Assembly (NCBI RefSeq): GCF_001552135.1
Contig: NZ_BCQP01000043.1
Location: forward strand, 1 to 64,000
Length of the DNA stretch: 64,000 nt
From: Actinomadura chibensis NBRC 106107
GTDB taxonomy: Bacteria; Actinomycetota; Actinomycetes; Streptosporangiales; Streptosporangiaceae
Reading direction: 5' to 3'
The notes beneath the pieces were generated by a model, which did no database searches, had not been told where the DNA came from, and saw only the letters and a list, made by a program, of their open reading frames with translations. This document shows positions 8,476 through 64,000 of the stretch, in pieces (within the stretch, counting starts at the first letter, position 1; the number at the start of each line of letters is the position of its first letter). The translations under genes were made by a program, and so were the position numbers.

Positions 8476-8655
8476 GGGTGGTGGGTTGCTTGAGACTCGA
8501 ACCCACAACCTACGGATCAAGTCGCCTGCCCTCGGATCAGAGCAATGCGTCAGTATCAGGTTATTCCGCTCTGTCCACGTCCAGCGCCATCCCATGCCGC
8601 CAGCTCCCGGTCCTTGCCAGTCCTTTCGAAACTGCCGAGCAGACAACGAGCCGAA
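8476..8655 (-). repeat. tRNA 3'-half repeat, copy A
   Basis: Read on the minus strand, the copy ends (8481-8518) with a T-arm and acceptor strand of a tRNA: GGTTCGAGTC T-arm, then CAAGCAACCC and ACCA. It lacks D-arm and 5' acceptor strand, so it is not a functional tRNA. The other end (8627-8655) carries a conserved GAAACTGCCGAGC/GACAACGAGCCG block, shared with copies at 50206 and 53026 in the same orientation. The middle is only weakly conserved. It probably derives from a tRNA att site. Confidence 0.7.
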
Positions 8656-50205: not shown

Positions 50206-50396
50206 AGGTGGGGGGTGGTGGGTTGCGTGGGACTCGAACCCACAACCTACGGATTAAAAGTCTGAAATTGTCGTGTCGAAACGGGTTTCACGGTGTCATT
50301 GTATGCCGAATTGTCCGCATCTCGCCCGATTTCCCTGCCGTCAAATGTTGCTGCATGCCGATTCGTTTCAGAACCGCCGAGCTGACAACGAGCCGC
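50206..50396 (-). repeat. tRNA-Lys(TTT) 3'-half repeat, copy B
   Basis: The minus strand reads GACTTTTAATCCGTAGG, then a T-arm with GGTTCGAGTCC, then the acceptor strand GCAACCC and ACCA. This is the anticodon loop to 3' end of a tRNA-Lys(TTT). The D-arm and 5' acceptor are absent. The far end (50370-50393) carries GAACCGCCGAGCTGACAACGAGCCG, shared with copies A and C. Confidence 0.75.
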
Positions 50397-50859: not shown

Positions 50860-52968
50860 TTACCGTTGGCGGTCGATGCACTGGGTGATCTCGTCGATGG
50901 CCGGGCCCCAGTGGTCCCAGACGTCCTGGATCAGACGCTGGCCGTCGATCGCCTTGCCGCTGAAGCGGTACGGCTCGTGCTTCTTGCGCAGATAGATCAT
51001 CTGACCGTCCAGGCGCGCGATGCCGCGGGTCTGTAGGACTTGGACAGCGGCCTGGAAGTCGGTGCCCTTGAGGGCCTGACGTCCTCGCAGCTTGTGGATG
51101 AAGGTCCCGCGCTCGCCTCGGTGACCGTGCGCACGGGTGAGGTTCATGAACATATTTAGGAACCGGACCGCACGGTCATTGGCGTTGATCTTGTGAGGAA
51201 GTTCCAACGTCGCTCTGTAGCCGACCCAGGGATAGTGCAGCGTCGTGCCCTCGGGGACCCGCAGTTCGAAGGTCCCATTCCGCGGCTCCCTGGTGATCAT
51301 GTGAGGAAGGTCGAGGCCGGGGTTCACCACCTCGATCGTCACCATGCCGTCGCTGCCGCCGTTATCGGCTGCCGGCCCCACGCGATGAGCGAACTCAACC
51401 GCCATCCCCTTGATGGTTAGGGTACTGCAGTGGAGGAAGACGTCGGGGCCGAGCACGACCGGGGTTCGGCGCGCGGGGATCTCCAGCGTTGCCGAGGTCG
51501 AGACAGTCAGGTTTTCCACCGGGCCATGCAGGTGCAAGACCTGCTCGGTCTCGGGGATCATTGTGAAGGTCTTCTCGTAGGGTGCGTCCGCCTTCTGGAG
51601 GCTCATGGTGACCTCGTAGTAGCCGTCGTCGGTTTCGATCGCGGTCACCGTCGCCAGGGCTCCGCTGAATTCACCGGCGGTGATCGAGGCGTGCAGGGCC
51701 GCAAACGCCCAGTCGTCGATCATCGGGTCATCCTGGAGGGCAACCAGGTCAAACAGCAGACTGGAGTTGTTGCCGATCTCGATCAGGCGCTGGCCATTGA
51801 TGAGCGACCCGAGGAGCTGGGAGGCGGTGTAGGCGGCAAAAACCGTGCTGGCCCAGCGGCCCTCGTTGCGGAAGGGGTGGTCGGCCACGAACGAGCGGAT
51901 CTTCTCCCGATATTCGCGGCGGATCTTGAGGTCGGTGATGTGCGCCAGGTCGGGTTCCGGCCCGTTCTCCAGGTCGTGACACAGCCACCGCAGCTGCTCG
52001 TCGGGAGGGTAGACCACGGCGGGGTCCAGGCCGATTTCGTCGGCCAGCTTGGCCATCTTGTCCTGATCCCGCTTCAGCAGATCCTCCAGGACGCGCTGCA
52101 GTTCGATAAGACGGTCAGTGCCCTGGCCCGTCGAGCCGAAGTTCTGCGCGAGCGCGTAATGGTTGTCCTCGCGCAGCAGCACCGCCGCCACCGCGTCAAG
52201 GACTGGGGGATAGCCTGCGAACGTCTCGGCGTCCTGGCCGGACACCGACCCGGCCACCGAGTCCAAGACCGCATCCCGGGCCGCCCGGTAGTAGGTGCCC
52301 TCCAGCGTGGTCGACCCCGACCGCCGACTCACCACGCCATCGACGTAGGCGCAGCGCTCCTGCGGTCCGAAGTGGGAAATCTCCAGCCAGGCGGTTTCAA
52401 CATCCGCATCAGCCAGATCAAACCAGACCTCATCGAGGGTACGCTCCCGGCCGAACAGCACAAACCGGCAGCCGTGTTGATGTGCGGTCGCGATCGACTC
52501 CACGAAATCGGCCCAGGAGGTTCCCGACACCAGGGCCCGAGCCTCATCCAACGAGTCGATCAGGATCATCGGGCTAGATTGCTGCGCCAGCGTCCCCGGT
52601 ACGTCTGCGGAACCGAGATACTGCCCAAGGACATAGAACAGCGACGTGCCACTGACGGCCTTGTCCTGCTCCAACTTCCACAGTGGTGCCCCCAGCCGGT
52701 ACGACAGTTCCTCGGCCGTGCGGCTTTTGCCAGCCGCGCCGCGCGCGGAGACCAGGACCACCGGTGCCTCAAGCCCGCCGGGCCCCAGATACTCCTCCCG
52801 TAGCACCATGGTCGGAGGGACGAAGAGAGGCCCGCCATCGGCAACCTTGAATGCAGCCTGCGGGACGCCGGAGAAGCCCACCCTTCCCAGCGCCGTGACG
52901 AGCTTGGGGAACGAAAGCTGCGTGTCCACCGAGCAATTCCATCGGCTCACCCACCGGGAAGCAAGCAC
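50860..52968 (-). CDS. P-loop NTPase of unknown function, in a repeat-bounded cassette
   Basis: A 702-residue protein. Walker A is ARGAAGKS (75-82) and Walker B PMILIDSLDE (133-142). An arginine-rich sensor stretch follows (CRFVLFGRERTLDEVWFDL). This resembles AAA/STAND ATPases used in bacterial immunity, but no effector domain is recognised at the N-terminus, which is only about 65 residues. The C-terminal 300 residues are beta-rich, ending in a helical part (DGQRLIQDVWDHWGPAIDEI). Codon use is less GC3-biased than in the central island. Tandem repeats B and C flank the gene within 0.5 kb on one side and 0.1 kb on the other. Confidence 0.75.
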   Translation of the reverse strand: MLASRWVSRWNCSVDTQLSFPKLVTALGRVGFSGVPQAAFKVADGGPLFVPPTMVLREEYLGPGGLEAPVVLVSARGAAGKSRTAEELSYRLGAPLWKLEQDKAVSGTSLFYVLGQYLGSADVPGTLAQQSSPMILIDSLDEARALVSGTSWADFVESIATAHQHGCRFVLFGRERTLDEVWFDLADADVETAWLEISHFGPQERCAYVDGVVSRRSGSTTLEGTYYRAARDAVLDSVAGSVSGQDAETFAGYPPVLDAVAAVLLREDNHYALAQNFGSTGQGTDRLIELQRVLEDLLKRDQDKMAKLADEIGLDPAVVYPPDEQLRWLCHDLENGPEPDLAHITDLKIRREYREKIRSFVADHPFRNEGRWASTVFAAYTASQLLGSLINGQRLIEIGNNSSLLFDLVALQDDPMIDDWAFAALHASITAGEFSGALATVTAIETDDGYYEVTMSLQKADAPYEKTFTMIPETEQVLHLHGPVENLTVSTSATLEIPARRTPVVLGPDVFLHCSTLTIKGMAVEFAHRVGPAADNGGSDGMVTIEVVNPGLDLPHMITREPRNGTFELRVPEGTTLHYPWVGYRATLELPHKINANDRAVRFLNMFMNLTRAHGHRGERGTFIHKLRGRQALKGTDFQAAVQVLQTRGIARLDGQMIYLRKKHEPYRFSGKAIDGQRLIQDVWDHWGPAIDEITQCIDRQR

Positions 52969-53025: not shown

Positions 53026-53199
53026 GGGGCGGGTTGCGTGGGACTCGAACACGCAACCTACGGATCAAGAGCGCTTCCGACGTAGCAGCCCGACAGGTCC
53101 AATGCCGTGCTGCGCCGCTTTGTCCGCATCCACCCCGTTGCGGTGCAGCCCGATGTCGCAGCGTCCCGTTCCCGAAACCGCCGAGCCGACAACGAACCG
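53026..53199 (-). repeat. tRNA 3'-half repeat, copy C
   Basis: The minus strand carries TTGATCCGTAGGTTG, a T-arm with one changed stem (GCGTGTTCGAGTCC) and GCAACCC. The other end (53172-53199) has GAAACCGCCGAGCCGACAACG. It is in the same orientation as A and B, and most like B in the central TGTCCGCATC block. Confidence 0.7.
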
Positions 53200-53305: not shown

Positions 53306-56300
53306 TCAACTAGCTGGCCTTGGGGGAAACCCGAGTGGTGGTTCGGGCTTATCGAGCACCCTGACTTCACGCCACATGTGCGCGAAGGTCTGATGCACGT
53401 CATGGATCCAGGAAGGCACCGAGCGCCAGTCGACGGTCACTTCGCGCTCGCCCCAGGCGACCTGCATGATCTGACGGTCTTCGGCGAAGTCGTCAACCAG
53501 GTCACGGCGGAGGAACAGCAGGTGTCCGCGCCACGGTTCTTCCGTGCGGAAGGTTGCTGAGGCGCATCTACCGTCGAAGCCGACGAGATCCAGGGTGCCG
53601 GGGAGCTGACGAAGTCGGAATCGGTCTGCGAACTCGAAGGACGCCACGTCGTAGGACCGCTCTAGGGCGGTCGGTGACTCTCCTTCGCCGGTCGCTAGTG
53701 TTACGGCCAACTGACCCAGCGCGATGCCCTCGCCTTGCTGGCGGTGACGCAACGTCGGACGCGAGTAGGCGTCATCTTCGTCGAAGTGCACCGCGAACCT
53801 TGGGCTCCAGGGCATCTCTCCTGCGAACACGCCCCGGATTGCCGGGAGTTCGGGGAAGAAATGATTACCGAGGTAGTCGAGCCCGCGGGCGAGGTCACGC
53901 GCGGGATCCACATCCGCCGGGTCCAGCAAGAGGGTGCGGAAGAATGCGAATACCGCTCGTCCCTCACGTCGATGCTGCAGAAACCCCTCGACCAGTAGCC
54001 AACCCCCAGTGACGCCGTGGATTTCTTCCGGCGACCACAGCTCCGCTGGCACGTTCACGGCACCGGTCCGGAGCCAAACCTCGTTGTCTATTGGGCTGGT
54101 GGGGGCCCACGCTGGAAGCTGGATGGTCGCCGCTGGTGGCTCAATAGGAAAGGTCGGGTCGATGTCGGGTTGCACGTGACGCCCGCCTCCGACGCACCAC
54201 CGATCCCGGTTACGCCCTGCGTCTGCGAGACGGCCGACGAGTTCGTAGTAGGCGATCCAGCCGTATTTCTTGCCGTAGCGCTCCACCTTCGCGCGGGCAC
54301 GCCCGAACCGGCTCGAGTCTTCGGCAATTGCCCGGTCGATGTCGCCTAGCAACGCAGTACGCCATCCCAGTTCCCAGACGCGGGCCATGACCTCGCCGCG
54401 GGCGCGACGGAAGTCAACGTGGTCGAAGTCGTAGTTTCCTCTGTCCTCGAATGCGGACCCGATCACGTAGTTCTCGAAGTCCATGCCGAAGGTGCTAACG
54501 CTTTCCTTGGCGTTCGGGTCGTCGTCGGCCATCACCGATGCAGGCGGTTTGGTCGCAAACGTCAGCACGAATGGATCGCACCTGCTGGGGACCGCACCCG
54601 GGTGCAAGGTTCCGGCGAGCTCGTAGGTCGCCCGTACGTAGCTGCGCAGCAGCTCATGGGAAGTTGGGGTTGACCCGCCGGTGAGGAAGTGGTCGTGTAG
54701 TTCGACGAGCCATCCGGCGAGCGCGCGCTCGAACGGCCCACCGGGATCTGGCATCTGGTGGGCACTGGCGGCACCGAATGCGGCTCCGACGACGCGTTCG
54801 ACAACGTAGGGGTCGTCCACATCGAGCATCTGGGTAGCGAGATCGAACAGTAGTTTCGGCTCGGGGCGGCCGTAGCGCTGCAGTGCCTTCGTCGCTAGAT
54901 CCCGCACGTCGTGATTGGTGGATGTCAGCAGCCACGCCATCGCGAGCGCGTCCAAATCGTCGCTGTCGTGGCGGTCCAGGGTTTCGCTCCAGCGCCTGGT
55001 CGCTTGTTGGATGTCGTCCACGATGTCGTCCTGGAGCGGGTTACCGGTGCGATGGCGGACCCATTCGGTCCATCTGCGGTCACGTTCCGGTAGCGGCACC
55101 AGGCGAAGGATCCGGTCGAGAAAGTTGGCGTTCAGCCGGTGCGCCGGGGATCTGCGGATCTCCCAGAGTCGGTCGAACGGATGTCGGCGCCCGTACCCGC
55201 GAGGCTCAGGGGGCCGCCAGTCCGTGGTGGTGAGCAACGTCGCGAGTTCATCGACCGTACCGTCATCGAGAAATCCAGACTCTGAGTTGAGTTCCTGCGC
55301 GAGCGCCCACGACCGATGCTGTTCCGGGGCGAGGCGCCAGAGATGGTGCGTGGTGAACCGGCGGGGCACCAGCCCGACGAGGTTGATGGCGACGTCCTCG
55401 CCAAGGGGGTGGCCGCCTTCGCCGAGGAGGGACTTCCACAAGGTCGGTTCCGCGAGTCGCTCCTCCGTCTCGGCACGGGTCATCTGCTCAAGGAACGCGT
55501 CGGCGATGAGATACCCGGCGAAGCGATCGAACAGGATTCCGGTCTGAGTGTCGTCACCTCCGTCGACCTCCTCGCGGAAGAGGACCCCTTCCTCTTCTAG
55601 ACGCCGGAACAGGCTCTCGTCCCAGTTGCTCTCGTTCGCGTCGAGGACCGCCTTGGCCTCATCGGACGGGAGTCGGCGGACGCGGCGCGTCCACATCCGC
55701 ATGGCTAGCGTGGCGAGGCGCCGCTTGATCTGGTCAGCGGGCACCGTCCTACGGGCGGGGTCTTGGGCAAGTCGCTGGGTCACGCCGTGGCGGTAGCGCT
55801 CGAACACGCCGACCAGGGAGGTTGGGAGTTTCTCGGCCCCCACCGGCTCCTTCCGATCGTGGTTTGCTGCTTCGCAGTACATGCGGAGGAACAGCGGGTT
55901 GCGGAACATCCTGATCGGTAGCCAGGTATCAGTAGTGTTGATCAGGTAGTCATTGAAGTAGGCCTGAACAAGGTCTCTGGCTTCGGACTGGTACCACTCG
56001 AGCTCCATGATCGTGGCCGTGTCCGGGACGACATGAGCTGCGAGTACCTCGCGGAGAGTGACGATCACCATCACGTTCGGGTAGTCGCCAAGTGCCGGTG
56101 CCAGCTCAGCGAGGAGCACACGCCACTGCGAAGGCCGCTCGGCTTCGTTCAGCCCATCGATGATTAGGGGAATCCGGAAGCCAGCACGGGCGCCAGCTGA
56201 GTTCAGCGCCTCCAAGAGGTCGTCGAAGCGCTCGACCCTCAGCCCAGCGATCCGTCGTGCCAGGTCATTGAGGTTTCCACCGGCTTGCAGGTGTCCGCCT

Positions 56301-57364
56301 TGGATAAATACCCCAGCTGTTGGCCGGTCAGCCGGAGCGGTCAACTGGGCGGCTAGATGCGTTTTGCCTTGCCCGGCAGCGGCGACGACTGCGATCAATG
56401 GGGCCTGGGCGTCCGTTTGCGTATCCCGCAGCCATTGGACGACGTCACGGATCTCCGCACCGAGCCCGGTAACGGCCAGAGACACCGGCAGGCGCCGTCT
56501 TCGTAGTTCGAGCACGAAGCGGCGAAGAGCGCGCGGTGATGTGGCGGGTGGCTGGAGGTCGGCGATACGCTCACGAACCTCGTTCGGCCGGAGGCTTCGT
56601 CCGGCATCGATGATCGCCCGCAGGTCGCGGACAAACCGGTCCAGGTCATCGGCGATTTCTTCGGCGTTGGCACGCACGTCGTCGCTGATGCCGGCGAGAG
56701 CGTCCCGGAGCGCGCCCGTTCGGAAGTTGATGCCCTCGGCGCGCTCATACAGCCAGCCGAACGATGCAGGACGCAGGAGAAGCCGGTCGATCCGATCTTC
56801 CACATGATGGGAGGTATGCAGCCGTGGCACCCACCGGGCCTCGACCGGTGCTACAGAACGCTTATGGGCCCTCGCAAGCGTGTCCGGGGCTAGGACGAGT
56901 TCCCCGAAGAAAGTGGAGCGGAGTTCGTCATACCCGGAGAGTTCAGCGTCGAAGTTCTCCGCAGCCCACAGTTTCGTGGAAATGCCCCGGGCGGGGCCAA
57001 GGCCATCGATCCACTCCTCGTCCTTTTTTGCCGGACGCTGAGGAAGGCATAGCACGAAGTCGGTCAGCCCGCCGACGTAATTGATCGCCTTATCGACAGA
57101 GTCCTCGATCTGTTTGCGTTGGCCCGCCGTAAACTCGTGATCTTTGGCGAGGATGAACCATTTGCACGACCAGCCCCATATTCGGCCCGGATCCCCGAGT
57201 GTTCCGGAGTGCTCGATCCGCAGGTAGAACTCGACACCGGGCTGATTGCGTCGTTCTCGGAGAGTGCCCAGCCCTCCGTAGCGGCGGGACACGATCGCCC
57301 GGGTGAGCACCTCGAAGTTCTTGTCGGCGGCGCCAGGAAGGCGCTCCAGATCAGTCAGATCCAC
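53306..57364 (-). CDS. Nuclease-STAND NTPase, Avs-like
   Basis: A 1352-residue protein counted from GTG 57364, which overlaps the upstream gene by 14 bp; ATG 57448 is also in frame. Residues about 15-160 resemble a Mrr/Cap4-type nuclease: FEVLTRAIV, then GVEFYLRI (E45) and WGWSCKWF (K68 of the S-x-K motif). The NTPase has Walker A AAAGQGKT (328-335) and Walker B PLIIDGLNEAER (399-410). The remaining 900 residues are helical and probably form the sensor, with no clean repeat visible. Avs (AVAST) proteins share this order of nuclease, STAND ATPase and phage-protein sensor. It is translationally coupled to a small protein and a radical SAM enzyme. Lower G+C suggests transfer. Confidence 0.8.
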   Translation of the reverse strand: MDLTDLERLPGAADKNFEVLTRAIVSRRYGGLGTLRERRNQPGVEFYLRIEHSGTLGDPGRIWGWSCKWFILAKDHEFTAGQRKQIEDSVDKAINYVGGLTDFVLCLPQRPAKKDEEWIDGLGPARGISTKLWAAENFDAELSGYDELRSTFFGELVLAPDTLARAHKRSVAPVEARWVPRLHTSHHVEDRIDRLLLRPASFGWLYERAEGINFRTGALRDALAGISDDVRANAEEIADDLDRFVRDLRAIIDAGRSLRPNEVRERIADLQPPATSPRALRRFVLELRRRRLPVSLAVTGLGAEIRDVVQWLRDTQTDAQAPLIAVVAAAGQGKTHLAAQLTAPADRPTAGVFIQGGHLQAGGNLNDLARRIAGLRVERFDDLLEALNSAGARAGFRIPLIIDGLNEAERPSQWRVLLAELAPALGDYPNVMVIVTLREVLAAHVVPDTATIMELEWYQSEARDLVQAYFNDYLINTTDTWLPIRMFRNPLFLRMYCEAANHDRKEPVGAEKLPTSLVGVFERYRHGVTQRLAQDPARRTVPADQIKRRLATLAMRMWTRRVRRLPSDEAKAVLDANESNWDESLFRRLEEEGVLFREEVDGGDDTQTGILFDRFAGYLIADAFLEQMTRAETEERLAEPTLWKSLLGEGGHPLGEDVAINLVGLVPRRFTTHHLWRLAPEQHRSWALAQELNSESGFLDDGTVDELATLLTTTDWRPPEPRGYGRRHPFDRLWEIRRSPAHRLNANFLDRILRLVPLPERDRRWTEWVRHRTGNPLQDDIVDDIQQATRRWSETLDRHDSDDLDALAMAWLLTSTNHDVRDLATKALQRYGRPEPKLLFDLATQMLDVDDPYVVERVVGAAFGAASAHQMPDPGGPFERALAGWLVELHDHFLTGGSTPTSHELLRSYVRATYELAGTLHPGAVPSRCDPFVLTFATKPPASVMADDDPNAKESVSTFGMDFENYVIGSAFEDRGNYDFDHVDFRRARGEVMARVWELGWRTALLGDIDRAIAEDSSRFGRARAKVERYGKKYGWIAYYELVGRLADAGRNRDRWCVGGGRHVQPDIDPTFPIEPPAATIQLPAWAPTSPIDNEVWLRTGAVNVPAELWSPEEIHGVTGGWLLVEGFLQHRREGRAVFAFFRTLLLDPADVDPARDLARGLDYLGNHFFPELPAIRGVFAGEMPWSPRFAVHFDEDDAYSRPTLRHRQQGEGIALGQLAVTLATGEGESPTALERSYDVASFEFADRFRLRQLPGTLDLVGFDGRCASATFRTEEPWRGHLLFLRRDLVDDFAEDRQIMQVAWGEREVTVDWRSVPSWIHDVHQTFAHMWREVRVLDKPEPPLGFPPRPAS

Positions 57365-57785
57365 CCTCGGCCTCTGCTGCCTGCCTCGGTCGTGGCGTTC
57401 CGTCCTCGTTCCAATCGTGGCGAGAGAACACCTCGACCCGCGCCCCAAGGTGGATGAGGACCTTCAAAAATCCCTGGACTTCAGACTCTTCGGTCCGAAT
57501 GCGAACAGTTGATCCGTTGCGTTCGATCGAGTAGTCGTAGCCGTAAATGTCGACATCGGACCGCCCCATGTCGTAGAGCTCTAGCTTCATCAGCTCATCG
57601 GCGAGGGCGGTGGGCATGCGCTCGTCCTGGCGCCGCCAATCGTTGTCGGGCCACTCGGCCTCGCCTAGGGGCTTCAAAGCCTCCATCCGCTCCATCGCCG
57701 CCTCCGCACCGGCCACCGTCTCAAACGTCCCGATCAGAACCAGATCCATCGAGTGCTCCGAGCCGTAGCTGTGCCAGATCCTCAT
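57351..57785 (-). CDS. Small conserved protein (DUF6375-like)
   Basis: A 144-residue protein starting MRIWHSYGSEHSMDLVLIG. This start pattern (IWxxYGSEHSxxLVxIGxF) recalls the DUF6375 family, as far as I can remember it. The rest is acidic, with a final basic GTPRPRQAAEAE tail. GGGAGG precedes ATG 57785, which overlaps the radical SAM stop (ATGA). The end overlaps the nuclease-STAND gene. No enzymatic motif is visible; it could be a substrate or partner for the radical SAM protein or a regulator of the NTPase. Confidence 0.6.
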   Translation of the reverse strand: MRIWHSYGSEHSMDLVLIGTFETVAGAEAAMERMEALKPLGEAEWPDNDWRRQDERMPTALADELMKLELYDMGRSDVDIYGYDYSIERNGSTVRIRTEESEVQGFLKVLIHLGARVEVFSRHDWNEDGTPRPRQAAEAEGGSD

Positions 57786-58675
57786 GCCGCCTCCCTCAGA
57801 GCTTGCACGGCGTCCAGGATGGAACCCTCGATCAGCGTTCCTTGTGGCGCATAGGCGTGGGGACGCAGGACGCCGGTAGCGTCAACGTGCATGTGCGCAT
57901 CCAAAGCACGTTCACCTGGGATGACCTCGACGGCCGACACCGAGGTCTCAAGCCCGGAACGCGAGATCGCGAGCCGCACCCCGGGCCTGGCAGTGCGTAT
58001 CCACCGAACAAGGCGCTCTGTATCGGCATCGGAGATACCAGGTGTGGCCGCGGTCGGCTGCTCGGGCAGCAGCAGGAGTTCGGATGCGCCGACGTCGACG
58101 GCGAACTCGGCGAGATCGTCAAGCACACCAATCGTGTCGGAGTTCACGACCGTGTTGATGCCGATCGGAGCGACTGAACGAAGCAGTGCGGCAGCGGAAA
58201 CCACCGCTGTGAACGGCCGACCTCGGAGCCGCTCGTAGATGCCCCCGACCCCATCGACAGACAGGCGCGCGAAGTGCACGGACCCCCGCAGAGCATGGGC
58301 GAGGCCCGGGGTCAGCCGATGCCCGTGGGTGGTGAAGGTCACCGCCATCGACGTCGACTCCGCGACCCGAGCGCAGAGCTGGGCGAACCCGCGGTGAGCG
58401 GTCGGTTCGCCACCTCCGAAACCGACGCCCAGGCATCCAGCACCGTCCAGCTCCACCGCCCAGGCGACCACACGGTCCACGTCCAGCGCGGCAGCCTGCT
58501 TGGGCGCATAGCAGTAGGCGCAGCGAAGCTCGCAGGCATTCGTCAACGCTACCGAAACGTAACGGGGGGCACGGGAAACCTGCTCGGGGCGTACCTGCAC
58601 GTCATCGAGCAAGACGTTCAACCCGGAAACCCGGTCGAACAGATGCACCCAGCTTTGGATAGACGGACCTTGCAC
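57782..58675 (-). CDS. Radical SAM protein
   Basis: A 297-residue enzyme with the 4Fe-4S motif CELRCAYC (C48, C52, C55) and the SAM-binding GGGEPTAHRGF (about 95). There is no clear SPASM cysteine cluster, and the viperin-type signature is not matched. The closest look is peptide- or protein-modifying radical SAM enzymes. The start is GTG 58675; its ribosome site is weak, so another start is possible. It is first in a three-gene operon with the DUF6375-like protein and the nuclease-STAND NTPase. A linked defence role is inference. Confidence 0.82.
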   Translation of the reverse strand: MQGPSIQSWVHLFDRVSGLNVLLDDVQVRPEQVSRAPRYVSVALTNACELRCAYCYAPKQAAALDVDRVVAWAVELDGAGCLGVGFGGGEPTAHRGFAQLCARVAESTSMAVTFTTHGHRLTPGLAHALRGSVHFARLSVDGVGGIYERLRGRPFTAVVSAAALLRSVAPIGINTVVNSDTIGVLDDLAEFAVDVGASELLLLPEQPTAATPGISDADTERLVRWIRTARPGVRLAISRSGLETSVSAVEVIPGERALDAHMHVDATGVLRPHAYAPQGTLIEGSILDAVQALREAA

Positions 58676-58869
58676 ATCATCGGCACCAGAATGCCACCGC
58701 TCAGGGACAGCACGCAGGGAGCGGCGCGAACTGAGCCGCCCGGTTGTCTGTGACGAGGTTCAAGGCTGTCGTGCATGAGTGGACGTAGCGGGTGGCGTTG
58801 GTGACGTCTGGCTTGGTTGAGGTGGTTTTGTCCCTTCTGAGGTGTTCCGGTGGAGCACACGATGGTCGG

Positions 58870-59214
58870 ATGGGACGTGGCCGGGGTGCTGGTGGCGTGT
58901 GCCGCCGGTGTGGGCATGGAGATCCGGTTTCGGGCCGGGCGGTGGGCGGCAGATGCCCCCCGGCTGGCGATGGGGCGAGCCACGGAATCTGGTACCTGCG
59001 GCTGGAACTGAGCAGCGCTCCGGGCGGGATCCGTCGGCGAGTCCGGCGGGGCGGCTTCCTCACCCGGAAGGCGGCTGAGGGGCAGTTGCGGCGGCTGCGT
59101 GGGCCGACGGGCAGTCCCTTGACGGTGGCGGAGTGGCTGGGGCGGTGGTTGGCGAACCATCTGGGGGCGGCGTCGGCGGTGGCCGGTTACGCCGAACATG
59201 TGGAGCGTTATCTA
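58870..59214 (+). pseudogene. Tyrosine integrase N-terminal fragment
   Basis: The frame from ATG 58870 reads CRRCGHGDPVSGRAVGGRCP, WYLRLELSSAPGG, RRGGFLTRKAAEGQLRRLRG, and LTVAEWLGRWLANHL. This is the N-terminal DNA-binding half of actinomycete phage/ICE integrases. It breaks at about 59214, where an IS30 remnant begins on the opposite strand. The catalytic domain is missing. It marks another former integration. Confidence 0.72.
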
Positions 59215-59540
59215 AGCTCGGCCGGGCGCTCCCGGATCGAGACCGCATCGCGGATCCGGCCGCGCTGCAGGCCGGCGGCGCTGGCCTTCTTGGAACGCCG
59301 CATCGTACGTCGTCGCCGCAGGTGAGCGGTCAACTCCTTGGCCAGCACGCCACGGGCCTGGATGAACAGGCTGCGGTAATTGGTCTCGTGCGACACCCGC
59401 ATCTCCTTTCGCTCGGGATAGGCGGCCTTCAACCAGCCGGAGATCTGCTCGGGCGACCAGCCCTCGACAAGCCTGGCGGCAACCACCTCACGCAACTCGC
59501 CGTCGCGCTGAAGCAGGCACCGCTTGGGGCGGCGGGTGTT
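59215..59540 (-). mobile_element. IS30-family transposase fragment
   Basis: The minus frame carries RRPKRCLLQRDGELREVVA, GWSPEQISGWLKAAYP, MRVSHETNYRSLF and a run of RRRRTMRRS, then SIRERPAE. These are the N-terminal segments of IS30 transposases up to the point where the DDE domain starts. The DDE domain is absent. HETIY is normally seen where this copy has HETNY. It interrupts the integrase fragment. Confidence 0.75.
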
Positions 59541-59544
59541 GTCC

Positions 59545-59703
59545 CAGGCACGAGCACGCGTCGAACTCGCCAGTGCGATCTCCGAGTACATCGAAGGCTT
59601 CTACAACCGCCACCGACGCCACTCCGCCCTGGATTACGTGAGCCCGTTACAGTTCGAAACCACCCACCCGTCGAGCCCGATCTCCTCACCCGCGAGTCCG
59701 TGA
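59545..59703 (+). mobile_element. IS3-family OrfB C-terminal remnant
   Basis: The + frame ends RARVELASAISEYIEGFYN, then RHRRHSALDYVSPLQFE and a stop at 59701-59703. This is the conserved C-terminus of IS3/IS2-type transposases (...EGFYNRxRRHSxLGYLSPxxFE). Nothing earlier of the gene remains. Confidence 0.75.
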
Positions 59704-59971: not shown

Positions 59972-61225
59972 TCAGGGGCGGGCTCGGAGGGTGGTGCGCC
60001 CCGAGGTGTCGTCGTGGAGGTCGGGGCTCAGGATGCGGCGGGTCACGGCGTCATGCTCTTGGAACACGGCGTGGTGGGTGAGGCCGAGGTCGGACCGGAG
60101 GGAGGCGGCGAAGCGGTCGCGGAGGGGGACTGAGGAAGGGGAGGGGCCCGCTTCGGTGACGGTCTCGGCATCCATGGCCAGCAGTTCTGCCCCGTACTGG
60201 TCGGCTACCGTGGCGGCGATCTGGAAGCCCTCATGGTCGAGGTCTCCGGCGTAGCGGAGCCGGACGCCTTGGTCGCGGGCCAATTGCAGGAACACGTGGT
60301 CGACGGCGCGCAGGTGGCCGCTGGTGCAGGCCAGCGGGACGTCGGAGCCGCAGGCCATGGCCGCCTCCAGCACGGACGGGTTCTCGACGACCGTCACGGT
60401 CTGCGGGGCCAGGGTGGGGGGATCGCGGGTCAGGTCCAGCAGGGTCAGGGCGACCGGGACGTCGGACTCGCGGAGTCGGCGGTCGATGACACCGTCCGCG
60501 GTGGTACGGATGCGGTGCAACAGGATGGTTGACGTGAGCCGGTCGGCGAAGATCCCCGCTTCGGCCAGCAGCGCACGGGTGTGGTGGGGAAGGGTGGGCT
60601 CGGGGTGGCCGGTGACCTCCATGACCGCGTAGACCAAGCAGCCGCCGTTGAATCCGCCCAGGTCGAAGTAGTGCGGGTCGCCCGCGCAGTCGTGGGCGAG
60701 TTTCGGCAGACTGACCGGAGGGGTATAGGGCACGCCTTCGGTGACCTGGGCCAAGGCAGTGATGAGGCGGCGGGCCTTGGGGACGTCGGCGCCGATGCCG
60801 CTGGCTTTCAAGCGGCGGACCAGCCGGGGGAGGCGGGGGAACGCCGCGTCGGCGTGCTCCCAGAGTTCGCGGCGCTGCCCGGCTGCCTCCCGCCGGTCGG
60901 CGGCCAGATTCACCACGGGCCTGCCCGTGACCTGCTCGGCCAGGAGAGCAACCTCGTTCGCGGACGCCTCGGTGACCTGGAGGAGTTCGCGCAGCGGCAC
61001 GTCGGTCGTGGTGCCCTCGACGGTGACGGCGGAGCGGCCGCGGCGGCGCCGGGTGGAGGTGTCCAGGTATGTACGTAGCTCGGCCAGGGCTCCCAGCGGA
61101 AGGTCCGTCACTTTCAGGGTGACGATCTGGTCGGCGGACCGCCCCGCGCAGAGCCGGTCGTGCAGGGCCTTCCAGAAGGGGACGAAGTCCGGGTCCCGGG
61201 CGAACCCGGCGAGGATCCCGCTCAT
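59972..61225 (-). CDS. jetD: Wadjet type III nuclease subunit JetD (TIGR02679/DUF2399)
   Basis: A 417-residue TOPRIM-fold protein. The N-terminal region (about 1-170) is helical. The C-terminal TOPRIM part has the acidic residue in VTVVENPSVLEA (about 295) and the DxD-type motif in YAGDLDHEGFQIA (about 340). In Wadjet, JetD cleaves plasmid DNA that the JetABC SMC motor has looped; the Jet genes here belong to the DUF2397-2399 series (type III). The start ATG 61225 overlaps the jetC stop (ATGA). It is the last gene of the operon. Confidence 0.87.
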   Translation of the reverse strand: MSGILAGFARDPDFVPFWKALHDRLCAGRSADQIVTLKVTDLPLGALAELRTYLDTSTRRRRGRSAVTVEGTTTDVPLRELLQVTEASANEVALLAEQVTGRPVVNLAADRREAAGQRRELWEHADAAFPRLPRLVRRLKASGIGADVPKARRLITALAQVTEGVPYTPPVSLPKLAHDCAGDPHYFDLGGFNGGCLVYAVMEVTGHPEPTLPHHTRALLAEAGIFADRLTSTILLHRIRTTADGVIDRRLRESDVPVALTLLDLTRDPPTLAPQTVTVVENPSVLEAAMACGSDVPLACTSGHLRAVDHVFLQLARDQGVRLRYAGDLDHEGFQIAATVADQYGAELLAMDAETVTEAGPSPSSVPLRDRFAASLRSDLGLTHHAVFQEHDAVTRRILSPDLHDDTSGRTTLRARP

Positions 61226-64000
61226 GCCATTCCGTCCAGAGTGACCGGCCGGGGTTCGCCGTGGCCCTCCCACAGCCAGGGGATGGTGATGCGGTTGCGG
61301 CCGGAGGCGACGACCTGGTGGACCATGGCCCGGCCCGACTCCCGTTTGATCATGGGGGTGATGGACGGCATGGTGGCCAGCACGTCGAAGTCCCAGGAGC
61401 GCAGCAGCGCCAGCACCTGGCGCAGGTTGGGCTCGTCGAAGGCGGCGTCGATCTCGTCGATCGACAGCAGGCGCGGCCCGCGGTAGTCGCCCGAGTACAT
61501 GGACCAGGCGGCGGCCAGCAGCGGCAGCATCGTGGCGAGCCTGCGCTCACCGGTGGACAGCGTCTCCAGCGGGTTGGAGCGCGTGCCGACCTTGCGGAAT
61601 GCCTCGTTCGACGATCCGTCGCCGAAGGAGGAGTGGGTCACGAAGATGTCCCACTCGTGCCAGGAGCGGTAGTCGAAGGTGTGGGCGACCCGGTCGGGCC
61701 AGGGCTCGTCGGCCTTCGCGTCCATCCGCTGGCGCAGGACGGTGTACATCTCCTCGAAGGATCGGTCGGTCGGGGCCTCCTCGATGAGTTTGATCATGCG
61801 GACCGCGTCCTCGTCCTCTTTGCGCACGTCCCAGTCGACCTGGATGCCGACGTTCGCCACGCCCGTGCGGACGCCGTCCAGCGTCTCGCGGATCTGCCGG
61901 ACAAGCTCGCGGGCCGCCTCCCGGCGGATCTGGATGTCCTTGCGGAGCCGGGTGAACATGCCGGTGCGCATCGCCTGCTTGAAGTCGTCGCGCAGATCCT
62001 CTTCGAGCAGGGCGATGCTCGCCTCCAGAGACGCTAGGGCATCGCTTAGGTCCTCGCCGCGCACGGTGTCGGGCTCGGCGACGACGGCGCGGCGCCACTC
62101 GGTCCCCTCGATCGAGACGAGCATTACCTGGCGGTTGAAGCGGGCCAGTTCGCCACTGGTGTCGCGGGCGCTGTTCTCGACCGTTTTCAGTGCCCGGTCA
62201 CGGAACCGGACGAGCTGGGCGTGCCGGTCCGCGTGCGCGTGGCGGTCCGCCAGCAGCAGTCGCGACCACTCCAGGGCGGCGGTCAAGTGGGCCGGCCGGC
62301 CGGACGGGTCGGCGGTGATGCCGTCCGGCAGCGTGGCCAGACCCTCGTCGATCAGGCGGCCGAGGGTGCGAACGCAGCGGTCGCGTTGCTGCTCAGCGGC
62401 CCGGCGTTGCGGAGCGACGTTCTCCAGGGTGACCTCTGCCCTGGTCTGCTCCTTGTCGGCTTCCTCCTTCTCGGTGCGGAGTGTCTCGATCTCCGACTTG
62501 ACCCGGCTGAGCTGTTCGGAGAGCCGGTTCTTGGTGGTGAGAAGGTCGTCGTATTCGGCGCCGTAGAGCCTGCGCATCGTCTCGACCGCGGCCATGGCCT
62601 TCCTCGCTTTGGCGCGTGCCTGACCGGCCCGGTCGGACATCCTGGCGGCAGTGACCCGGGCCGTGGCGGCGGTCTGGTGATCGCGGCGGGCGGCCCGCAT
62701 CAGTTCGGTGCAGCGGAGAGCCGCCATGCGGCCGTCCCGGACCAGCAGTTCGAGCGTGCCGACCGCTCCGGCGTGGTTGTCCAGGGCGTCATGGGACGTG
62801 GGAAGCAGGGAACCGTCCGGGAGGGCGGCCGCCTTGTTGAGGGCGCCCAGTGCGGACCGGACCGTCCTGGTGGCCTCGTCATGCTTCTCGGCGGCGTCGA
62901 TGGCGGCGGTCTCGGCGCGGATGAGCGCCTCCTGAGCGCGATCTTCGGCGCTGTGCGCGGTGCGGACGGCGTTCACCGCGGAGTGGGGGAACCCGTTCTG
63001 TTCTCCGTCAGCCTCCTCCTGGGCGCGGGTGGCTTCCAGGCGGGCGGTCTCGCATTCTTGGGCGGATCGCCGCAGTTCCGCGGCGTTCTCCTCCGCCTTG
63101 GCCGCGGCGGAGCCGGCGGATCGTGCTGTCCGCTCGGCGTGCTCCAGGCTCTGCCGGGCTCGATCGAGCCGGGCGGAACGTGCGTCGGAGCGTTGCCGGA
63201 GGGTCGTCATGACCTGCTGGAGCGCGAGGTCCGCCTGAGCGGTGCGCTGCGCCGCCTGCCGCTCGGCGATGGAATGCTCGCGAGTCCGGCTGGCGAGGTC
63301 GTGGCGGGCCGAGGAGAGCGCCTCGTCGGTGGGCAGGGCATCCCGTTCGGTGGCCGCGGCGAGGACGTGGCTTTCGCGTCGGCTGAGTTCCTGGTCGGCC
63401 TGTCGCAGTTCCCGCTCGTGTTCGGCGAGGCGCTGCTCCAGTTCGGCGAGGCGCTGTCGCCGGGCGCGTTCCCGGGCAGTACGGCCGATGTAGGCCGCCT
63501 GGTAGCCCTCGGGACAGGCGGCGGTGAGCACCCCGTTGCGCAGGGCGCCGGGCGCGGGGGAGTCGACCGGGATCGAGCGCAGCAGCCGGTGGATCGCCTC
63601 GGCGGAGCCGCCCTCCTGCGCGTCGGGCTGGAGGAAGTCGGCCAGTGTCCGGTGCGGGGCGGACACGGTGGGGGTGAGGACGAGATCACCGGCAACCGGG
63701 CGACCGTCCGGCCTGATCAGCGCGTCGAGGAGGCCCGACGCCAGCAGGGCTCCTTCGAGCCGGTCGGCCTCCTCGGCGGAAAGGTGGCCGGCGAAGTCGA
63801 CGACGGCCCACAGGGGGACGCCGTCGTCGCCCGAGCGCGACCGCCATTGCGGTGCGGGCGGTACGGGGGCGGTCCGGCGCGCTCGCACCACGTCGGCGCG
63901 CAGTTCCTCGATGCCTGCTTCGACCGTTTTAATGACCTCGCGAGCCTCGGCGACCTGATGGTGCAGTTCCGCAGCGGCCGCCGCGTGGGCCTTGTGGGCG
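61222..64000 (-). CDS. jetC: Wadjet type III SMC-like ATPase JetC (TIGR02680), 3' part
   Basis: More than 925 residues are in the window and the gene continues beyond the right edge, so the N-terminal Walker A is not visible. The frame stays open to 64000. Long coiled coils (Ala/Glu/Arg-rich, about 63960-62100) form the SMC arm. The C-terminal head has the ABC signature-like LSTGERRLATMLPLL and Walker B GPRLLSIDEIDAAFDEP. JetC is the MukB-like motor of Wadjet, extruding DNA loops and detecting small circular DNA. jetA (DUF2397) and jetB (DUF2398) are expected upstream, to the right of the window. Confidence 0.88.
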   Translation of the reverse strand, partial: AHKAHAAAAAELHHQVAEAREVIKTVEAGIEELRADVVRARRTAPVPPAPQWRSRSGDDGVPLWAVVDFAGHLSAEEADRLEGALLASGLLDALIRPDGRPVAGDLVLTPTVSAPHRTLADFLQPDAQEGGSAEAIHRLLRSIPVDSPAPGALRNGVLTAACPEGYQAAYIGRTARERARRQRLAELEQRLAEHERELRQADQELSRRESHVLAAATERDALPTDEALSSARHDLASRTREHSIAERQAAQRTAQADLALQQVMTTLRQRSDARSARLDRARQSLEHAERTARSAGSAAAKAEENAAELRRSAQECETARLEATRAQEEADGEQNGFPHSAVNAVRTAHSAEDRAQEALIRAETAAIDAAEKHDEATRTVRSALGALNKAAALPDGSLLPTSHDALDNHAGAVGTLELLVRDGRMAALRCTELMRAARRDHQTAATARVTAARMSDRAGQARAKARKAMAAVETMRRLYGAEYDDLLTTKNRLSEQLSRVKSEIETLRTEKEEADKEQTRAEVTLENVAPQRRAAEQQRDRCVRTLGRLIDEGLATLPDGITADPSGRPAHLTAALEWSRLLLADRHAHADRHAQLVRFRDRALKTVENSARDTSGELARFNRQVMLVSIEGTEWRRAVVAEPDTVRGEDLSDALASLEASIALLEEDLRDDFKQAMRTGMFTRLRKDIQIRREAARELVRQIRETLDGVRTGVANVGIQVDWDVRKEDEDAVRMIKLIEEAPTDRSFEEMYTVLRQRMDAKADEPWPDRVAHTFDYRSWHEWDIFVTHSSFGDGSSNEAFRKVGTRSNPLETLSTGERRLATMLPLLAAAWSMYSGDYRGPRLLSIDEIDAAFDEPNLRQVLALLRSWDFDVLATMPSITPMIKRESGRAMVHQVVASGRNRITIPWLWEGHGEPRPVTLDGMA

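Follow-up and report, generated by a model that had tools for sequence, protein, structure and literature searches.

A Conserved Three-Gene Operon Encoding a Radical SAM Enzyme, a DUF6375 Protein, and an Avs2-like Nuclease-STAND Protein

Results

Organization of the Operon

We analyzed a stretch of 64,000 nucleotides from Actinomadura chibensis NBRC 106107 (RefSeq assembly GCF_001552135.1, contig NZ_BCQP01000043.1, positions 1 to 64,000; hereafter the window), in which positions 53306-58675 carry three overlapping minus-strand genes for a radical S-adenosylmethionine (SAM) enzyme, a small DUF6375 protein, and an Avs2-like nuclease/STAND (signal transduction ATPase with numerous domains) protein. 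A preliminary description made from the sequence had claimed that the genes overlap by ATGA and by 14 bp and had named a radical SAM, a DUF6375-like, and an Avs-like product. The coordinates of the open reading frames (ORFs) confirmed the overlaps: the stop codon of the radical SAM gene and the start codon of the DUF6375 gene form ATGA, and the Avs gene, read from a GTG at 57364 to its end at 53306, encodes 1352 residues and shares 14 bp with the DUF6375 gene. Matches to PF04055 (54 bits), PF19902 (189 bits), and PDLC02164 (388 bits) bore out the three products. The mechanically defined Avs ORF begins 28 codons earlier, at a TTG at 57448, and has 1380 residues; unless stated otherwise, Avs residues are counted from the GTG at 57364, with which start the E45 and K68 of the preliminary description are correctly numbered. 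The features of the operon are:

57782..58675, minus strand: radical SAM enzyme, 297 residues from a GTG at 58675 (PF04055, 54 bits), composed of an N-terminal HLFDRxSGxN segment, CX3CX2C, and a short C-terminal part lacking conserved Cys
58511..58534, minus strand: CX3CX2C [4Fe-4S] motif of the radical SAM enzyme, residues C48-C55 (from sequence; 21 of 21 aligned loci)
57351..57785, minus strand: DUF6375 protein, 144 residues, predicted ferredoxin-like core (PF19902, 189 bits; AlphaFold2 mean predicted local distance difference test [pLDDT] score of 80)
57750..57779, minus strand: N-terminal tail of DUF6375, I-W-x-x-Y-G-x-E-H-S, residues 3-12 (strict pattern in 251 of 263 proteins among the matches listed); proposed target of the radical SAM enzyme or partner-binding tail
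53306..57364, minus strand: Avs2-like nuclease-STAND protein, 1352 residues (PDLC02164, 388 bits; sequence match to 9o4e; Foldseek match to 8dgf)
56960..57364, minus strand: predicted PD-(D/E)xK-type nuclease region of Avs, residues 1-135 (E45 in QPGVEF, K68 in W(S/Q)CK)
56360..56383, minus strand: Walker A of Avs, AAAGQGKT, residues 328-335 (G331, K334, and T335 in 21 of 21 loci)
56138..56161, minus strand: Walker B of Avs, IDGLNEAE, residues 402-409 (D403, G404, and E407 in 21 of 21 loci)

In 16 aligned relatives, extra radical SAM residues (approximately C-K-I/V-R-L-S-x-A-G) precede HLFDR. The corresponding 5' stretch of the window gene (58646-58680, minus strand) lies in another frame, and the GTG-started product diverges from the relatives before H11; this frame difference may be biological or a sequencing error.

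The Three Genes Occur Together in Distantly Related Hosts

One genome per species (84,980 genomes) was examined by a pattern scan based on an alignment of DUF6375. The scan relied on two short peptide patterns, one of them inside the conserved tail, and is a sample rather than a census. It returned 21 DUF6375 loci from 20 organisms, because two loci (L015 and L016) belong to Streptomyces sp. cf386; 19 are in Actinomycetota, one is in a metagenome-assembled genome of Candidatus Dadabacteria, and one is on a Picosynechococcus plasmid. All 21 have the order radical SAM-DUF6375-Avs on the same strand. The Avs gene is broken in two of them, by an insertion near residue 209 of the 1380-residue ORF (L008) or by the absence of approximately residues 430-906 of that ORF (L011); the Avs ORF of L014 is short (1104 residues), and the DUF6375 ORF of L024 begins only at residue 17. 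The radical SAM and DUF6375 genes overlap by 4 bp at 20 of the 21 tabulated loci, including the window, and by 1 bp at the other. Identities of the radical SAM, DUF6375, and Avs proteins to those of the window are approximately 44%, 38%, and 32% in Dadabacteria and 45%, 34%, and 31% in Picosynechococcus. Retention of the gene order at such low identities suggests that the set is old or has been widely transferred as a unit.

Whole-genome searches, whose counts include the genome that supplied the query, detected DUF6375 in 2 of 296 genomes of the class to which the window belongs. A radical SAM profile found 1 of 396 genomes of its phylum at E 1e-30 (the window's own genome) and, at E 1e-25, 3 of 339 genomes of the cyanobacterial phylum and 1 of 57 of the Dadabacteria phylum; a cyanobacterial copy newly met in this way (G933) has all three genes. 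Among the matches listed, the names of DUF6375 entries in the protein database, taken apart from their gene context, add Nostoc, Microcoleus, Thermodesulfovibrionales, and Shewanella.

We also searched 72,556 plasmids separately with radical SAM queries (from the window and Vibrio), a DUF6375 query (Picosynechococcus), and an Avs query (Vibrio); these searches do not depend on tail words. The radical SAM and DUF6375 searches returned the identical 16 records: 12 from Vibrio (mutually near-identical), two from Deinococcus, one from Synechococcus, and one from Picosynechococcus. The Avs query matched 15 of these 16 at a coverage of at least 80%, and its next matches fell from 537 to 162 bits. 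Order and orientation are kept on the plasmids of Vibrio, Deinococcus QL22, Synechococcus, and Picosynechococcus. In the 16th record, Deinococcus peraridilitoris pDEIPE01, an IS3 element follows a DUF6375 gene that is altered at its C terminus, and Avs was not found in the stretch fetched. On four of the 12 Vibrio plasmids, Avs is broken by an insertion sequence (IS) element (three plasmids) or by a split frame (one). The preliminary description had set conservation of the neighborhood as a test beforehand: the three genes were together at every DUF6375 locus examined, and we did not meet, in the data searched, a radical SAM-DUF6375 pair in an unrelated context without the NTPase, the exceptions being the decayed copy with the IS3 element and the copies with a broken Avs. 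The three genes are thus linked.

Plasmids of several Vibrio species carry the module, and 11 of the 16 plasmid records are typed conjugative; on Vibrio parahaemolyticus pVb677-tet, the module adjoins annotated drug-resistance genes. The radical SAM enzyme had no match at 1e-10 in 50,697 phage records, and a pattern scan of viral contigs did not find DUF6375.

The Module Avs Proteins Split from Eight Other Avs2-like Proteins in an Unrooted Tree

The large protein of the window matched six Avs2 models, among them PDLC02164 of PADLOC (388 bits, 2.1e-116) over approximately residues 1-971 (28-999 of the longer ORF), and scored 255 bits against NCBIfam Avs2 (NF041813), below the cutoff of 1000 bits. 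The solved Avs2 structure 9o4e matches columns 321-964 of the Avs profile, and Foldseek matched the Avs model to Avs4 (8dgf, sequence identity of approximately 11%–13%), which makes the protein NLR (nucleotide-binding leucine-rich repeat receptor)/Avs4-like by fold. E45 is present at 21 of 21 loci and K68 at 20 of 21 (Arg in Deinococcus QL22). The predicted nuclease region has the element order α-β-β-α-β-α-β, with low confidence for residues 1-44, and we apply the name PD-(D/E)xK to this predicted fold from the order of elements and the motif. The nuclease, STAND ATPase, and helical C-terminal part can all be recognized, by motifs present at 20–21 of 21 loci and by fold matches, the nuclease fold at low confidence.

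A search with the PADLOC Avs2 model recovered four module copies and four Avs2-like genes outside the module. Four further plasmid Avs matches (one in Haloplanus, two in Moraxella, and one in Halobacterium) have no annotated radical SAM or DUF6375 gene nearby, and BLAST and profile searches found neither gene at any of the eight nonmodule loci within the stretches fetched. Small ORFs upstream of the Moraxella genes were considered as hidden DUF6375 genes and rejected, as they showed no likeness by eye and no match to the DUF6375 profile. In a maximum-likelihood tree, 16 module proteins and the eight other Avs2-like proteins are split by a branch with 100/100 support on a long stem; the tree is unrooted, three of the eight outside rows are long-branched, many rows have an unusual letter composition, and five module rows (L015, L018, L019, L022, and L025) were left out for speed.

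Pairwise distances among the 16 Actinomycetota loci were correlated between the radical SAM and DUF6375 proteins (0.86), the radical SAM and Avs proteins (0.93), and the DUF6375 and Avs proteins (0.93), and none of 5000 permutations gave as high a value in any of the three comparisons. The test set comprised 21 loci, leaving out those with broken genes (L008, L011, L024, and L031), L016 (a duplicate of L015), L006 (the same as L010), L042, and the Vibrio records other than that of pVb677-tet (L034). The three genes are co-inherited, and in the unrooted tree the module Avs proteins lie apart from the eight other Avs2-like proteins.

One of the four nonmodule genes recovered with the PADLOC model is a second Avs2 gene in the assembly of the window (L054, G000 contig C30:157994-162271; 775 bits to PDLC02164), with no radical SAM or DUF6375 gene nearby. 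This assembly is rated 5.9% contaminated, so its two Avs2-like genes could in principle come from different organisms.

The Radical SAM Enzyme and Its Closest Solved Relatives

C48, C52, and C55 are present at 21 of 21 aligned module loci. The best sequence matches of the enzyme in the Protein Data Bank (PDB) were SkfB (64 bits) and PqqE (52 bits); the next matches, at 29 bits or less, included unnamed radical SAM proteins, 5wgg, viperins (less than 28 bits), and MoaA. Among NCBIfam families the scores were 47.9 bits for MoaA, 45 for GeoRSP, 44 for mycofactocin, 44 for StsB, 42 for viperin (NF038283, cutoff 180 bits), and 42 for PqqE, and the protein fell below the cutoff of every family listed (25 of 60). 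The enzyme is the best conserved of the three products between Actinomycetota and other phyla (43% versus 32% and 31%). We disfavored a viperin assignment, which lies below the NCBIfam cutoff and behind SkfB and PqqE in the PDB search; the family scores by themselves do not separate viperin from PqqE.

DUF6375 Carries a Highly Conserved N-Terminal Tail on a Predicted Ferredoxin-like Core

PF19902 matched residues 1-132 of the small protein at 189 bits, above the Pfam gathering score of 27.5 bits. An AlphaFold2 model (mean pLDDT of 80) predicts a ferredoxin-like β-α-(αα)-β-β-α-β core, with a pLDDT below 50 for residues 1-10 and 136-144, so that the tail is predicted to be disordered. Set against the small winged helix of a PqqD-like recognition element, the model shows the order β-α-α-α-β-β-α-β. 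Foldseek gave weak and generic matches, mostly to designed ferredoxin folds and none at E 0.001 or better, and the sequence matched nothing in the PDB at better than E 0.25; as the fold matches are generic, no function follows from the fold. The structure alignment of DUF6375 (A5) leaves out four plasmid-derived rows that are present in A4, and A6 leaves out the plasmid-record Avs rows.

Comparison of 16 Actinomycetota loci with five other loci gave an identity of 75% for residues 1-12 and of 27% for residues 16-132. W4, G8, E10, H11, and S12 are invariant at 21 of 21 loci; so are two residues that follow the last strand, S121 and H123. We collected 263 DUF6375 proteins from among the matches listed (120 of 227, 120 of 1843, and 120 of 2610 in three sets), and the pattern [IV]W..[YH]G.EHS stands at residue 3 in 251 of these; 11 others have close variants of the tail and one is cut short. 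Because 197 of the 263 have no Cys at all, thioether chemistry on DUF6375 is disfavored.

Five tandem proteins (P0146-P0150, 241–247 residues) contain two DUF6375 cores and one tail, at the N terminus of the first core (degenerate in P0147); the second copy lacks a tail in all five. The C-terminal motif GAxVExFSxH is altered to a varying degree in the first core and retained in the second. From this architecture, a single tail and a single C-terminal motif seem to be enough for each protein. The topology of a ferredoxin fold presumably puts the tail and the C-terminal motif on one edge of the sheet, where a single site could be formed by the two.

Discussion

A Proposed Mechanism

According to PMC12931631, Avs1-4 are effectors with nuclease activity; on sensing terminase, portal, or some other protein of the phage, they kill the cell. 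We propose that the three genes encode an Avs-type antiphage system in which the radical SAM enzyme modifies the tail of DUF6375 and DUF6375 serves as an adaptor or license for Avs, a reading to which we give somewhat less than an even chance. The enzyme, translated just before DUF6375, would install a C-C or C-O crosslink, an epimerization, or a similar change on W4, Y7, E10, H11, or S12; because the tail has no conserved Cys, these chemistries are likelier than a thioether. Modified DUF6375 would bind Avs and set when it may fire. In Avs, which we take to be a bacterial NLR akin to the Avs2 group, the C-terminal helical part would sense a phage component, upon which the STAND ATPase would oligomerize and the N-terminal PD-(D/E)xK nuclease would cut DNA, so that the infection is aborted.

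We infer most firmly that the three products act together, and least firmly the role of the radical SAM enzyme. Modification of the tail is favored because the conservation of the tail exceeds any evident need of the fold, its position at the N terminus is fixed, it is single in the tandem proteins, and the enzyme core is maturase-like in the PDB search. The analysis shows the conserved operon, the split of its Avs from the other Avs2-like proteins, co-inheritance, the catalytic motifs, the conservation of the tail, and predicted fold classes; the modification and its site, the contact between DUF6375 and Avs, the phage trigger, and an abortive outcome are inferred. A role in defense, which the preliminary description had advanced, is made plausible by membership in the Avs family and a few defense genes nearby; linkage is the part of that description that now stands on observation. 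Of the three roles that it had offered for the enzyme (modifying the small protein, producing a chain-terminating metabolite, or licensing the nuclease), modification of the small protein fits best, and a viperin-like chain terminator is weakly supported.

Several observations weigh against this scheme. The NCBIfam models single out no peptide maturase, and the PADLOC pVip model matches the enzyme at 53 bits. No Cys is conserved after residue 200 among the 21 aligned loci (none at all at 17, one to three in L015, L026, L027, and L032), which speaks against a cluster of the SPASM or twitch type, whereas SkfB and PqqE possess auxiliary-cluster Cys residues. The conservation of the tail may be somewhat inflated, as the short words by which the genome scan and protein searches choose candidates lie partly in the tail. 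The tail might also serve solely to bind, or might become folded upon contact with a partner or a metal. Template-modeling scores of the whole Avs model are approximately 0.2, and its nuclease region is modeled at low confidence. Defense neighbors are patchy (4 of 10), some through generic domains alone.

Alternative Explanations

The same linkage could reflect an enzyme that modifies Avs itself, for instance to prevent nuclease activity in cells that are not infected, with DUF6375 as a carrier or recognition subunit and the tail as a docking peptide. The overlap of the radical SAM and DUF6375 genes, the superior conservation of the enzyme across phyla (43% against 32% and 31%), and the presence of both partners with every plasmid module-type Avs (15 of 15 records, 12 of them near-identical Vibrio) fit this arrangement. 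Many peptide maturases use winged-helix recognition elements, however, from which the predicted ferredoxin-like fold appears to differ, and a short motif fixed at residue 3 would be unusual for a docking subunit; we regard the explanation as unlikely, though the likeliest of the alternatives.

Modified DUF6375 might instead act as an antitoxin-like brake on a self-toxic nuclease, which would be freed when a phage damages the modification or the protein. We did not see the module Avs without the radical SAM-DUF6375 pair, whereas the radical SAM gene is retained where Avs is broken or lost (L008, L011, pDEIPE01, and four Vibrio plasmids). But Avs makes up approximately three quarters of the operon, so that about six independent breaks falling there are unsurprising (probability approximately 0.18 by length alone), the DUF6375 of pDEIPE01 is itself altered at its C terminus, and the DUF6375 ORF of L024 starts from residue 17. 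We think a brake rather unlikely. The location of losses in Avs was also considered as proof of toxicity and was rejected on gene length.

Linkage could, further, serve a function other than phage defense, for example in plasmid competition or in the programmed death of cells of multicellular bacteria. Several copies are carried by plasmids, and filamentous Actinomycetota and cyanobacteria are frequent among the hosts; the Avs-type architecture and the defense genes by some copies (a complete Wadjet by the window copy, an Upx-like gene by the Deinococcus QL22 copy, and type IV restriction by L007) make such a function improbable. Least probable, and in our view quite doubtful, is a small molecule made by the enzyme with DUF6375 as helper (a viperin-like nucleotide analog, another antiviral metabolite, or a ligand of the Avs sensor), for although there are viperin matches (PADLOC pVip at 53 bits, NCBIfam viperin about level with PqqE, structures below 28 bits) and viperin likewise lacks auxiliary-cluster Cys, the NCBIfam score is 42 bits against a cutoff of 180, two peptide maturases outscore viperins in the PDB search, and the invariant tail would be left unexplained.

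Relation to Known Systems

The module Avs resembles Avs2 (AVAST type 2) in its N-terminal nuclease, central STAND ATPase, and long helical C-terminal part; it differs in lying behind the 100/100 branch and long stem of the unrooted tree and below the NCBIfam Avs2 cutoff, and in its radical SAM and DUF6375 partners, which all eight other loci lack in the stretches fetched. To our knowledge, Avs4 (8dgf) has no radical SAM partner. With the peptide maturases SkfB (6efn) and PqqE (6c8v), its best solved sequence relatives, the module enzyme shares a radical SAM core, and the genes of both maturases adjoin one for a small ribosomal product. Unlike them, the module enzyme has no conserved auxiliary-cluster Cys, and its putative substrate is a folded protein of 130–144 residues with an N-terminal tail rather than a leader-core peptide. 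Prokaryotic viperin (pVip) is likewise a radical SAM protein in phage defense, but the module enzyme falls far short of the viperin cutoff (42 versus 180 bits) and is accompanied by a STAND nuclease and DUF6375. A conceptual precedent is offered by the FtsH ternary vWA-MoxR conflict systems, NTPase-based systems for which PMC7159879 proposes that a radical SAM domain modifies a peptide effector, the product of a neighboring gene; these systems contain vWA-MoxR rather than a STAND nuclease.

DUF6375 is mentioned nowhere in the literature searched, a partial body with most subscription journals and bioRxiv outside it, and when the same body was searched for radical SAM proteins partnered with STAND/Avs systems or lying in defense islands, we saw no description of this operon. 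The preliminary description had called the system undescribed, which fits the three-gene operon within that literature and does not extend to each part, because PADLOC would already name the large gene Avs2.

Avs proteins serve as a model for NLR-like phage recognition in bacteria. An Avs group that we did not find without a radical SAM enzyme and a tailed protein would imply a layer of control in which a chemical modification acts as license, sensor, or brake, a layer that we did not see described in the literature searched. DUF6375 gains a functional context and a direct prediction, its radical SAM-dependent modification. If the proposal is correct, a ribosomally made cofactor of innate immunity would be modified posttranslationally. 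The wider claim is that, across at least five bacterial phyla, an NLR-type receptor is licensed by a radical SAM-installed modification of the tail of its own ferredoxin-fold partner protein; this is more tentative, and we would sooner expect it to fail than to be true.

Genomic Surroundings

The mention of Wadjet in the preliminary description was borne out by a complete type II system (JetABCD) directly upstream of the operon. The system occupies minus-strand positions 59972 to 64000 and continues to approximately 69087 of the contig; the window includes jetD and a part of jetC, and the remainder lies beyond. Ten long neighbors of other copies were picked by hand, and four had PADLOC matches with E values of 1e-15 or lower: type IV restriction (by L007), mads8, PDC-S68, and a GajB/DRT-like helicase. 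An Upx-like gene follows the Deinococcus QL22 copy (L033). In the comparison of flanking genes, no Pfam family occurred in more than three of 111 neighbor ORFs, and the PADLOC table covers 25 of 144 families.

A 22-base sequence resembling the 3' end of a tRNA occurs three times on the minus strand (50220-50241, 53031-53052, and 8483-8504, with 1, 0, and 3 mismatches; mean of 0.00 occurrences in shuffles), and ARAGORN found no tRNA in the window. The first two copies flank a 702-residue ORF (50860-52968, minus strand) just downstream of the operon and are reminiscent of the att scars of integrative elements. The 702-residue protein had no match of note in Pfam, PADLOC, or NCBIfam and contains, by eye, a P-loop-like SARGAAGKS. 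Upstream of the operon, a 127-residue ORF (59208-59591, minus strand) resembles what we take to be a fragment of an IS30-type transposase.

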